Assembly: GCA_902795045.1 (NCBI GenBank)
Contig: CADBJU010000015.1
Span: forward strand, 41,514 to 105,513
Reading direction: 5' to 3'
DNA length: 64,000 bases
Source of the DNA: Oscillospiraceae bacterium
GTDB taxonomy: Bacteria; Bacillota; Clostridia; Oscillospirales; Oscillospiraceae
Both the position numbers and the translations under genes were made by a program. This document shows positions 11,947 to 57,538 of the stretch, one piece after another. Positions within the stretch are counted from its first letter, which is position 1. Each line of letters begins with the position of its first letter. Below the pieces are notes generated by a model that was given only the letters and a program-made list of their open reading frames with translations, was not told the origin of the DNA and searched no databases.

Positions 11947-12684
11947 TTATCTCTTTTTCAGCAAAAAGCTCTCGCCGCAGACGTAGGGGGAGCCGTGGAC
12001 ATTGTGGCGCACCTGGGCGGCCATGGCCTCGCGCCCGGTGACAACGAAGCCCCCGAGCCGGTCGATGCCGCAGTCCAGAAGCTCAGGGCACATGGGCACC
12101 GACGGGCCGGTCAGGATCGTGACGGCGTTTTTGCACAGCTCGAGCAAATGAGGCAGGGTTTTGTTGATCAGGCTGCTGCCGGTGATGAGCACCACGTCAC
12201 ACCGCGGCAAAAGCCAGTCGCAGGCGGCGTCCGGGTAGTCGCCGAGGCGCGGACGGCGCTCGAGTACGTACACCGCGCGGGCAATGTCCCGCAGGCCCCG
12301 CGGCCCGTTCATGTGGCCGACGATGCCGACGGTCTTGTCATGAAGGTCAAGGCCCACAGTGGGGTAGACATCCCCCGGCAGGGCACAGCCCAGCGCCGCC
12401 ATGCGCTCCGGCGTGTTATAGAAGGCGTTGCAGGCGGCAAGGCCGAAGCTTGCCTCCGTGAGGTTCCAGCTCCTTGCCGCCTTTGCAGCTTCTTTAAGCG
12501 GCAGGCCGCAAAGGCCGTCGGGGTACAGAGCGGGAATGCTGTTGCCCGGGGTCATCATGCCGAGGCCCATGCCCTCCTCTGCCTCCGCCATGGCCCAGCA
12601 CTCGCCGCCCACGGTTTGGAGCACCGGCGCGGCGCTCGTCACGTTTTCGATCAGCGCGTCATATAAAGCGAGCTTGTTTGACAT
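11947..12684 (-). CDS. DUF4213/DUF364 domain protein
   Basis: A 245-residue protein with an N-terminal DUF4213 region and a C-terminal DUF364 Rossmann-like region (TVGIVGHMNGPRGLRDIA; LERRPRLGDYPDAACDWLLPRCDVVLITGSSLINKTL). Family members are described as putative heavy-metal chelation or metal-handling proteins, sometimes near molybdenum or metal transport genes; no such neighbour is present here. Conserved Asn/Thr/Gly residues of the C-terminal sheet are intact. The real substrate is unknown. Confidence 0.82.
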   Translation of the reverse strand: MSNKLALYDALIENVTSAAPVLQTVGGECWAMAEAEEGMGLGMMTPGNSIPALYPDGLCGLPLKEAAKAARSWNLTEASFGLAACNAFYNTPERMAALGCALPGDVYPTVGLDLHDKTVGIVGHMNGPRGLRDIARAVYVLERRPRLGDYPDAACDWLLPRCDVVLITGSSLINKTLPHLLELCKNAVTILTGPSVPMCPELLDCGIDRLGGFVVTGREAMAAQVRHNVHGSPYVCGESFLLKKR

Positions 12685-12721
12685 ATCGTTCCCCTTTTCT
12701 TTTTCACATAAACTGTTTTCA

Positions 12722-12750
12722 TTGACAAAGCGCTCTGCCTTCTGTAGAAT
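12722..12750 (+). promoter_or_regulatory. Sigma-A promoter of the small hydrophobic ORF
   Basis: TTGACA (12722-12727), 17-bp spacer, TAGAAT (12745-12750). A start near 12757 would give a 5' leader of about 67 nt before the ORF at 12824. Confidence 0.75.
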
Positions 12751-12799
12751 ATCTATGGGGCGTTGCCATTTTCCCAGTATACGGTAGGCGGTTCCGTCA

Positions 12800-12818
12800 C
12801 ACCACCCGAAGGGGGGTG
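12800..12818 (+). promoter_or_regulatory. Hairpin sequestering the Shine-Dalgarno sequence
   Basis: CACCACCC pairs with GGGGGGTG (one A-G mismatch, three-base loop). The purine-rich ribosome binding site of the small ORF lies in the 3' arm, so translation should be blocked unless the structure opens. The adjoining leader segment 12782-12798 can also pair with the transcript's own 3' region 12941-12957 over 17 positions including four G-U pairs. Confidence 0.6.
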
Positions 12819-12823
12819 TTGAT

Positions 12824-12907
12824 ATGCCGATTACAATAACGTTTCACATCTTTGGATGCACTGTTACGATTACTGTAAAAAGCGGAAGCCGCCACTCTGC
12901 CAAGTGA
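12824..12907 (+). CDS. 27-residue hydrophobic peptide, candidate type I toxin
   Basis: The frame reads MPITITFHIFGCTVTITVK followed by SGSRHSAK: a short amphipathic/hydrophobic segment and a basic tail, the layout of small membrane-acting type I toxins. It has its own near-consensus promoter, a strong but occluded ribosome binding site, and a convergent antisense transcript that overlaps its 3' end. It is too short for standard gene calling. I do not recognise a named family with certainty. The alternative is a leader peptide, but no downstream gene on the same strand exists to be regulated. Confidence 0.6.
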   Translation: MPITITFHIFGCTVTITVKSGSRHSAK

Positions 12908-12971
12908 CGGCTTCTTAGTACATATCTAAGACCATAACCGGGCGGAACCGTTTACCGGCAACGCCTTTTCT
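12874..12971 (-). ncRNA. Predicted antisense RNA, candidate antitoxin
   Basis: Expected from the perfect minus-strand promoter at 12978-13006. Transcription would start near 12971 and end at a hairpin (GAAGCCG / CGGCTTC arms, 12885-12914) followed on the minus strand by CGCTTTTT. The product of about 98 nt is fully complementary to the last codons and 3' region of the 27-residue ORF transcript. It also carries a copy of the sequence found in that transcript's 5' leader. Confidence 0.6.
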
Positions 12972-12977
12972 ATTTTT

Positions 12978-13006
12978 ATTATACTTGCAGCAAAGCAAAA
13001 TGTCAA
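12978..13006 (-). promoter_or_regulatory. Perfect-consensus sigma-A promoter for the antisense RNA
   Basis: On the minus strand TTGACA (13006-13001), 17-bp spacer, TATAAT (12983-12978): no mismatch to consensus. It lies just beyond the methylase stop and points into the small ORF. A promoter this strong with no ORF downstream argues for a regulatory RNA. Confidence 0.8.
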
Positions 13007-13015
13007 GGCAGAGGT

Positions 13016-13951
13016 TTATTTCTTCCTTTTCTGCATTGCAAAGGTGTTGCGCTCCCAGAACACGCCGTCCGCGTAGCCCTGGATGGCGGGCGCTTCGTTT
13101 GCCAGCTCCAGGCGCTTTTCGCACCAGACGCAGTAGAGGGGGTTTTGCTCGACGCCCACGAAGTGCCGCCCCAGCTTCTTTGCCGTGACGGCGGTGCTGC
13201 CCGAGCCGAGGAAGGGATCGAGCACGATGCCGCCCGCGGGGCAGCTTGCGAGGATGAGCTTTGCCAGCAGCTTTTCCGGCTTCTGTGTGGGGTGGGCGGT
13301 GTTCTCCGGCATGGACCAGTAGGGCACGGAGATGTCGTCCCAAAAGTTGGAGGGGGCCGTGTCCCGGAAGCGGCCGTCTTCGGTCTCCTCCCAGTCCTTG
13401 GGCTTTCCGCCCTCACGGTAGGGGGCGATGACGCGTCGGCGCTGTCTGACCGCGTCCAGGTCAAAATAATAGTTCTCCGACGCCGTGGCAAACCAGATGT
13501 CCTCCATGGCGTTTTTCCAGTTTTTCTTCGCGCCGCGCCCTTTCTCCCGCTGCCAGGTGATGCGGTTTCGCACCGTGAGTTTTTCCTCCAGCACCCGCCC
13601 GATCACAAGGCTTGAGCGCCAGTCGCAGCAGACATAGACGCTGCCGTCCGGTTTCAGCAAGGGCAGGCAGGCCGCCAGCCAGCGGCGGGTGTACGCCTCG
13701 TAAGTCTCATCGTCCGTGCGGGCAAAGCGGCTGCCGTGGAAGTCCTTGGAGAGATTATAGGGCGGGTCCGCGATCAAGAGATCCGCAAAGCCGCGCGGCA
13801 ACAGCGGCAGCACCGCAAAGCTGTCGCCGCGGATCGTGCGGTTGAGGATCTCGCCAAGTGCCGCGGGGGCGCTCACTTCGACGCAGCGGGCGAGGTATTC
13901 TCTGCCCTGCTCCAGATCCAGATCTATGGTTTTGTTTCTCTCTGCCTTCAA
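13016..13951 (-). CDS. DNA (adenine/cytosine amino) methyltransferase, orphan
   Basis: A 311-residue amino-methyltransferase of the beta arrangement. Catalytic motif IV DPPYNLSKDFHG is near residue 61 and the SAM-binding motif DPFLGSGSTAVTAKKLGRHFVGVE is near the C-terminus (about 246-270), with a target-recognition region between (WQREKGRGAKKNWKNAMEDIWF). It methylates an exocyclic amino group, most likely N6-adenine. No restriction endonuclease gene is adjacent, so it behaves as an orphan. The stop codon of the downstream PPTase gene's 5' neighbour overlaps by 4 bp: the methylase start overlaps the PPTase end (13948-13951), so the two are cotranscribed. Confidence 0.88.
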   Translation of the reverse strand: MKAERNKTIDLDLEQGREYLARCVEVSAPAALGEILNRTIRGDSFAVLPLLPRGFADLLIADPPYNLSKDFHGSRFARTDDETYEAYTRRWLAACLPLLKPDGSVYVCCDWRSSLVIGRVLEEKLTVRNRITWQREKGRGAKKNWKNAMEDIWFATASENYYFDLDAVRQRRRVIAPYREGGKPKDWEETEDGRFRDTAPSNFWDDISVPYWSMPENTAHPTQKPEKLLAKLILASCPAGGIVLDPFLGSGSTAVTAKKLGRHFVGVEQNPLYCVWCEKRLELANEAPAIQGYADGVFWERNTFAMQKRKK

Positions 13952-57403: not shown

Positions 57404-57436
57404 ATATGCATCCCGCGCGTGACAACTGAATACCGT

Positions 57437-57505
57437 CTCGATATATAGCAAATGATATGGATTTGAAGTTTCTACCCGGACGCCGTAAATGACCGGACTA
57501 TCGAA
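57437..57505 (+). promoter_or_regulatory. Purine riboswitch, guanine-type aptamer
   Basis: The purine-aptamer consensus is clear: P1 arms TCGATA (57438-57443) and TATCGA (57499-57504); ATATGGATTTGAAGTTTCTACC covers P2/L2 and J2/3; CGCCGTAAATG is L3. The specificity base just before TAT is C (57498), which reads guanine (adenine sensors have T). It is expected to shut off the downstream transporter when guanine or hypoxanthine is abundant. Confidence 0.92.
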
Positions 57506-57514
57506 GTACCCATC

Positions 57515-57538
57515 AGGGGCGAGCGATCGACCCCTTTT
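57515..57538 (+). terminator. First hairpin of the riboswitch expression platform
   Basis: AGGGGCGA-GCGA-TCGACCCCT: an eight-base-pair stem with one bulged A and a GNRA loop, then TTTT. A plausible ligand-controlled terminator. Confidence 0.6.

Follow-up and report, generated by a model that had tools for sequence, protein, structure and literature searches.

A probable type I-kind toxin–antitoxin cassette in Oscillospiraceae chromosomes, with a short candidate toxin faced by a convergent antisense gene

The window analysed here is a stretch of 64,000 nucleotides from an Oscillospiraceae contig. Flanked on one side by a DUF364/DUF4213 gene (11947–12684, minus strand) and on the other side by an N6_N4 DNA methylase gene (13016–13951, minus strand), a compact cassette is found in which a 27-codon open reading frame (ORF) and a predicted antisense gene converge (Table 1). 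The initial annotation had described an ORF at 12824–12907, a near-consensus promoter ahead of it and a perfect promoter on the opposite strand, and all three were recovered at these places, with 11 and 12 of the 12 promoter positions matching (the latter read from 13006 to 12978). Four promoter-like sites are present in 12001–13800, against 0.4 expected from shuffles. The antisense terminator lies over the stop codon of the ORF, as had been proposed; its 13-pair stem (12914–12885) is followed by CGCTTTTTAC and is both conserved and covarying. Scanning the cassette for intrinsic terminators gave none that would end the sense transcript, so the 3´ end of the peptide mRNA is placed by inference. 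The cassette has no Rfam match at the gathering score and, in agreement with its first description as an undescribed locus, the family is without a description in the literature searched, most subscription papers being beyond reach. The neighbouring methylase is orphan-looking, with relatives at E ≤ 1e-30 in only three of the 31 genus genomes searched, its own included. Elsewhere in the window, a purine riboswitch (62.1 bits) occupies 57419–57520.

Table 1. Features of the cassette, in window coordinates.
Feature	Position	Strand	Basis or remark
Promoter of the peptide mRNA, TTGACA-17-TAGAAT	12722–12750	+	11/12 consensus
Predicted peptide mRNA, ~215 nt	12757–12971	+	Start placed from the −10 box; 3´ end putative
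Outer clamp helix, 5´ arm	12759–12767	+	Pairs with 12957–12965; two-sided changes at 7/7 aligned pairs
Inner clamp helix, 5´ arm	12782–12798	+	Pairs with 12941–12957; two-sided changes at 8/15 aligned pairs
Local hairpin masking the Shine–Dalgarno site	12798–12819	+	GGGGGG at 12811–12816
27-codon ORF plus TGA, MPITITFHIFGCTVTITVKSGSRHSAK, candidate toxin	12824–12907	+	In-frame pN/pS, beta-type periodicity, AlphaFold
Predicted antisense RNA, ~90 nt	12878–12971	−	Ends placed from promoter and terminator
Antisense terminator hairpin spanning the ORF stop codon	12885–12914	−	Two-sided changes at 7/12 aligned pairs; 97.3% of cells paired
Variable segment between stop-codon hairpin and clamp	12915–12940		Possible private recognition address
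Clamp helices, 3´ arms	12941–12965	+	Fold and covariation
Promoter of the antisense RNA, TTGACA-17-TATAAT	12978–13006	−	12/12 consensus

The peptide search of relatives recommended by the initial annotation was productive: a set of 200 genomes from the same family contains 54 with a peptide match at E ≤ 1 and 41 with one at E ≤ 0.01. In the own genome, a DNA search gives three copies besides that of the window, and a peptide profile brings the count to nine copies (E ≤ 2.2e-8). In the order, 15 of 295 sampled genomes have a match at E ≤ 0.01, other families among them. In the class, three of 391 genomes match, the own genome included; one of the two other class-level matches is without the architecture and the other without a start codon. 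At least 118 stretches match in nucleotide records. Vescimonas fastidiosa is a named carrier, and the carriers among the matches listed comprise Oscillospiraceae, Oscillibacter, Pseudoflavonifractor capillosus An827, Yanshouia hominis, Agathobaculum massiliense and others. In the Vescimonas fastidiosa record, whose gene table is stated to be incomplete, a matched stretch has no listed gene over it. Nine matches fall in viral contigs. The match in MT835905.1, deposited as a bacteriophage, was discarded as evidence for phage carriage because its ORFs read (by inspection, with no family scan) as ordinary chromosomal genes, and the record is probably mislabelled.

Conservation of the two promoters was scored in 85 elements: 93 of 112 places were used (two of the 19 omitted stand at E ≤ 0.01), one of the 93 is without a start codon, and seven of the remaining 92 have too little flank. 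An antisense promoter with a score of at least 10 is present in 82 of the 85, compared with 24 of 850 dinucleotide shuffles and 16 of 85 opposite strands, and its −10 position lies at a median of 76 nt past the stop codon. The sense promoter attains this score in 59 of the 85 (17 of 850 shuffles, 14 of 85 opposite strands). A second sample, which was picked solely by the pattern at the ORF end and the hairpin and shares some contigs with the first, contains the antisense promoter in 117 of 120 cases, 114 of them at 60–110 nt (15 of 600 mononucleotide shuffles); here the sense promoter score reaches 9.5 in 68 of 106, and one short-flank match and ten lacking a start were partly excluded. Among a further 18 copies from the own genome and the order for which a start was assigned, 17 have an antisense score of at least 10, the exception being a class-level match (G740). 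Three ORF copies are without a good antisense promoter.

The predicted mRNA is strongly folded. The folding check proposed at the outset gave −88 kcal/mol for 12757–12975 against a shuffle mean of −60.4 (z −5.7), and none of 200 shuffles is as low. The leader had been said to pair with the 3´ region over 17 positions, and this pairing stands (14 Watson–Crick and three G–U pairs), but not as the full length of the clamp, which also includes the outer helix. The fold test was applied to the 58 elements in which the two promoters are both present at the standard spacing, leaving out 27 of the 85. At least ten leader-to-3´ pairs form in all 58, and the leader–3´ duplex has z < −2 in 55 of them. 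Across the 46 transcripts that could be aligned, two-sided changes occur at 23 of 38 consensus pairs and 94.7% of cells are paired; no shuffle out of 500 reaches any of the five covariation measures, and sliding the partner by one column lowers pairing to 48–52%. The percentage paired is favoured, because the consensus structure derives from the same alignment and the shuffles lose the relatedness that the slid versions keep. For the antisense RNA, regions from 56 of the 58 elements were prepared and 44 aligned. Since the parts of the cassette recur at similar spacing in relatives and covary, their combination is more than chance.

The Shine–Dalgarno site lies within a hairpin, as first described, and this hairpin is local (four aligned pairs, 91.8% of cells paired, changes mostly one-sided). 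In folds of the 58 relatives, its mean unpaired probability is 0.057 at full length, 0.046 when the 3´ end is trimmed, 0.056 when the 5´ end is cut back to 40 nt and 0.049 when both ends are shortened, and end-trimming opens the site by more than 0.2 in none of the 58. As trimming either end leaves the site paired, the local hairpin by itself masks it. The unpaired probability rises (0.13–0.25) only when the 5´ end is cut to 20 nt, into the hairpin. Activation by trimming of the mRNA ends was therefore rejected, the site staying masked in 58 of 58 folds. The presence of a Shine–Dalgarno site is not in itself independent evidence, since it was one criterion in choosing the start codons.

The analysis of substitutions indicates that the ORF is a gene under coding selection. 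In-frame pN/pS over codons 2–20 is 0.36 in the 27-residue group (33 distinct sequences) and 0.24 in the 25-residue group (21), compared with 0.92–3.45 in the other frames. The three codon positions have, in order, entropies of 0.64, 0.31 and 1.36 in one length group and 0.57, 0.21 and 1.32 in the other, and the aligned peptides differ in length by whole residues, with the frame kept. Frame conservation had been singled out by the initial annotation as a point on which its proposal could fail, and the synonymous bias is seen in this frame only. Most members encode 25–27 residues; in the copies of one genome, G042 (L091, L092, L093 and L362, four of four read), the ORF stops at a TGA before the usual NRH tail.

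The peptide had been called hydrophobic, which holds in part, as its sequence is amphipathic and ends in a basic tail. In 106 of 106 peptides, the core has its maximal hydrophobic moment at 160–170 degrees. An AlphaFold model of the window's own peptide from a single sequence (30-residue read; pLDDT 75, pTM 0.32) contains two strands, residues 4–12 and 15–23, and together the periodicity and the model point to a beta-hairpin. No relatives above threshold were found in Pfam, NCBIfam, PHROGs, PADLOC or PDB sequences. The sub-threshold matches to SM-ATX (E 0.085), to phrog_37177 by one relative (E 0.097) and to a PDB chain (E 0.17) were set aside as chance.

The predicted antisense RNA is found with other peptides as well. 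A covariance model (R1), built only from the antisense RNAs of cassettes with the beta-type peptide, gives 105.9 bits for the copy in the window, which belongs to its training set, and also detects cassettes with unrelated ORFs. One group of these payloads is a membrane-helix-like peptide with a lysine tail, such as MTTSEVLQLCLVIIGICGLFIQAKKK, found in 11 of 150 genomes at E ≤ 0.05. R1 matches 16 of 20 loci from the helix-peptide search at E ≤ 0.01, including one (L331) where the top match is a neighbouring beta copy and the second falls at the helix copy. Inspection of 15 more R1 matches yielded four more payloads (L367, L369, L370 and L371). The L369 peptide scores above the Pfam cut-off for Hol_Tox (30.2 versus 23.3 bits, E 4.2e-7), and 31 bases of its RNA chassis match that of the window at 93.5% (E 6e-9); the other payload peptides have no family match above threshold. 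The nine sister cassettes checked have an antisense promoter score of at least 11.5 at 86–94 nt and the stop codon inside a hairpin. Their leader–tail pairing beats shuffles, with z from −2.4 to −13.7, the latter extreme being inflated by unread bases in L371; one sister cassette whose transcript start was wrongly placed gave no leader–tail signal (z −0.3). Furthermore, one genome (G046) carries both kinds of payload about 240 bases apart.

Some copies have no ORF at all. Among 12 such copies, judged by eye, the leader and the ORF are lost and most keep the antisense promoter, which scores at least 10 in 11 of the 12; in one of the copies with the promoter, G000:C42, only part of the terminator hairpin remains. 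Five copies with ORF remnants have an antisense promoter of 9 to 11.5. In the Vescimonas fastidiosa record, ORF-less antisense units are observed near full cassettes, two of them in tandem (L095 3780–3909; L298, L299, L300). Over the 85 elements, the antisense promoter alone is kept in 26 and the sense promoter alone in three (exact McNemar p 1.5e-5). This uneven retention, together with the ORF-less copies, hints at toxicity of the product. However, the weaker sense promoter may reflect design rather than loss, and the two kinds of loss are sampled unequally, because the ORF search cannot find ORF-less copies and R1 cannot find ORFs without the antisense unit. Homologues with a broken ORF and both promoters had been named as contrary evidence, and these were looked for in part: the ORF-less copies have lost their leader too while most keep the antisense promoter, as would be expected of a toxin, but G014:C7 combines a shortened ORF with two intact promoters. 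Separately, the leader of the G000:C14 copy (L036 602–717) is longer by about 105 bases that its G174 counterpart (L040) does not have, with an apparent terminator-like inverted repeat; this copy may be inactive.

Taken together, the locus is probably a chromosomal cassette of the type I toxin–antitoxin kind, with an antisense-silenced candidate toxin, the word toxin being inferred for the peptide from sequence. Features of the class found here are a short ORF with its own promoter and under coding selection, and a predicted antisense gene, complementary to the mRNA, whose promoter and terminator are conserved and covarying. The anatomy claimed at the outset (convergent promoters, 5´–3´ folding, a masked Shine–Dalgarno site and a terminator over the stop codon) stands and is maintained by selection. 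The type I reading is supported by the in-frame coding selection, the retained antisense promoter and the covarying clamp, hairpin and terminator, as well as by the antisense promoter outlasting the sense one, the ORF-less copies and the use of the chassis by helical peptides. It is weakened by the lack of a helical membrane segment in the peptide and of a trimming route in the folds, by the shortened ORF of G014:C7 and by the three ORF copies without a good antisense promoter.

In the proposed mechanism, the convergent antisense gene, with its stronger promoter, would produce its RNA steadily. This RNA would bind the 3´ half of the mRNA by base pairing, forming a duplex that would be destroyed, probably by RNase III, so that the peptide does not accumulate. 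If the antisense RNA dropped and the masked mRNA were opened by a further step, the 27-residue peptide would be made and would harm the cell, probably at the membrane, as an amphipathic beta-hairpin that is perhaps oligomeric. The RNA part would be the conserved unit, and the peptide exchangeable between cassettes.

The alternative that survives best, an unlikely one, keeps the same RNA control and supposes a peptide that is no toxin to its own cell and acts in signalling, as an antimicrobial or in membrane regulation. Coding selection and RNA control alone do not prove toxicity, and a peptide of the beta type is not a membrane helix; on the other hand, the sister cassettes carry helical membrane peptides, one of them above the Hol_Tox cut-off, and the bias in promoter retention and the ORF-less copies fit a harmful product.

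The surroundings of the cassette bear on its movement. Neighbours are not shared among relatives, the largest cluster comprising three of 80 loci. In the sister genome G174 (L122, G174:C12:95500–98800, compared with window positions 12640–13080), the cassette is inverted between the same two genes, and the homology begins at one −35 box and ends at the other (91.4% over 292 columns). For four of the nine copies in the own genome (C7, C33, C1a and C14b), the stretches compared show no match outside the cassette to any of the nine G174 loci. Dispersal in many copies and inversion of this kind would suit a small mobile or MITE-like repeat with inverted ends that resemble a clamp and promoters by chance, and the clamp arms are inverted repeats in the DNA too. 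Such an element is nevertheless very improbable, given the coding selection on the ORF and the divergence of the promoter spacers while clamp, hairpins and ORF persist, unlike the terminal inverted repeats of a recent transposon.

A reading of the locus as a leader or riboswitch that regulates the DUF364 gene, with the minus-strand promoter and terminator acting as an attenuator, would suit the direction of that promoter towards the gene at 12684. Yet the opposite orientation in G174 between the same genes and the unshared neighbours of the relatives rule it out for practical purposes, and Rfam gives no match at its gathering score. Finally, a structured non-coding RNA with an ORF by chance would account for the strong conserved RNA structure but hardly for pN/pS values that are low in the ORF frame only, and deserves next to no credence.

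The toxin–antitoxin reading may be extended to the segment between the stop-codon hairpin and the clamp. Same-genome copies whose ORFs are at least 0.93 identical form 13 pairs, and in these the segment has a mean identity of 0.70, versus 0.93–0.98 elsewhere; it is the least conserved part in 11 of the pairs and has an identity of 1.0 in the other two. In three G042 pairs the segment as delimited takes in part of the hairpin, and a clamp arm is unrecognisable in nine of 107 elements. Drift suffices to explain most pairs, because the promoter spacers and outer flanks have often diverged just as far. The clear exception is G154 (segment 0.52, spacers 0.94 and 1.0, outer flanks 0.88 and 0.78), and G453 is a weaker one. 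A hairpin within the segment has a mean z of −0.52 (p 0.014), with at least four pairs in 77 of 93 elements versus 64 expected. The case for the variable segment and its hairpin, first judged strong, was weakened by these controls. By analogy with the module-specific IsoA RNAs, the segment is a possible private address of each antisense RNA.

A broader proposal, given somewhat less than even chances, regards the RNA chassis of the Oscillospiraceae, made up of leader, clamp, stop-codon hairpin and antisense gene, as a hereditary unit that captures and swaps unrelated tiny toxins. Its main payload would be a beta-hairpin toxin, for which type I systems offer no described precedent; every copy would have a private antisense address in the rapidly changing segment, and the ORF-less copies would act as spare antitoxins. 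Should the type I reading be true, gut bacteria of a common group would have as many as about nine cassettes per genome that annotation can miss, and a beta-structured peptide would join a class whose described membrane toxins are helical. One RNA control would then drive several unrelated peptides, a natural experiment in which the demands of the RNA part on its payload could be tested. The uneven retention of antisense and sense promoters, a hint of toxicity obtainable from sequence, could also be tried on other candidates.

In the txpA/RatA and bsrG/SR4 systems of Bacillus subtilis, a convergent antisense RNA covers the 3´ part of a small toxin mRNA, and the same layout is found here. The initial annotation had drawn this likeness; it holds for the layout and not for sequence membership, the best sub-threshold Rfam match being BsrG, which scores 12 bits (E 1.3) where the cut-off is 55, so that no sequence relation is indicated. 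The present peptide differs in being of 27 residues and beta type, and the cassette is not tied to prophage genes where examined. According to the available part of the source, the txpA–RatA duplex decays via RNase III (PMC3531473).

The aapA/IsoA modules of Helicobacter pylori, as described in the accessible portion of PMC6733600, occur in several chromosomal copies with a cis antisense RNA and module-specific antitoxins, and their full-length mRNA of 225 nt is inert through a 5´–3´ interaction. The cassette described here resembles them in its multiple copies, its predicted cis antisense RNA and a predicted mRNA of about 215 nt, and folding and covariation suggest a long-distance interaction of the same type. 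From the same portion of that source, 3´ trimming activates the aapA3 mRNA, whereas here it leaves the Shine–Dalgarno site closed in folding (0.057 to 0.046); likewise, the aapA/IsoA antitoxin promoter can be placed inside the ORF because it is mutable within the toxin codons (PMC6733600), whereas here it lies past the stop codon.

As far as the available text of PMC8309996 goes, AapA1 is an alpha-helix and an alpha-helical transmembrane domain is reported for each of the membrane-associated type I toxins described, a feature that the peptide of the window, by its periodicity and AlphaFold model, appears to lack. The type I toxins of Clostridioides difficile, in the part of PMC6563280 that could be consulted, have 34–59 residues and a transmembrane domain and are mostly found in prophages. 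They share with the present family a small ORF, an antisense RNA and a charged C-terminus, and differ from it in length (mostly 25–27 residues here) and in setting, the neighbours here being unconserved among 80 loci. Hol_Tox (PF16935) is matched by the L369 peptide of a sister cassette on a related chassis and not by the peptide of the window. A sequence member of neither system, the cassette is closest to txpA/RatA in layout and to aapA/IsoA in mRNA folding.
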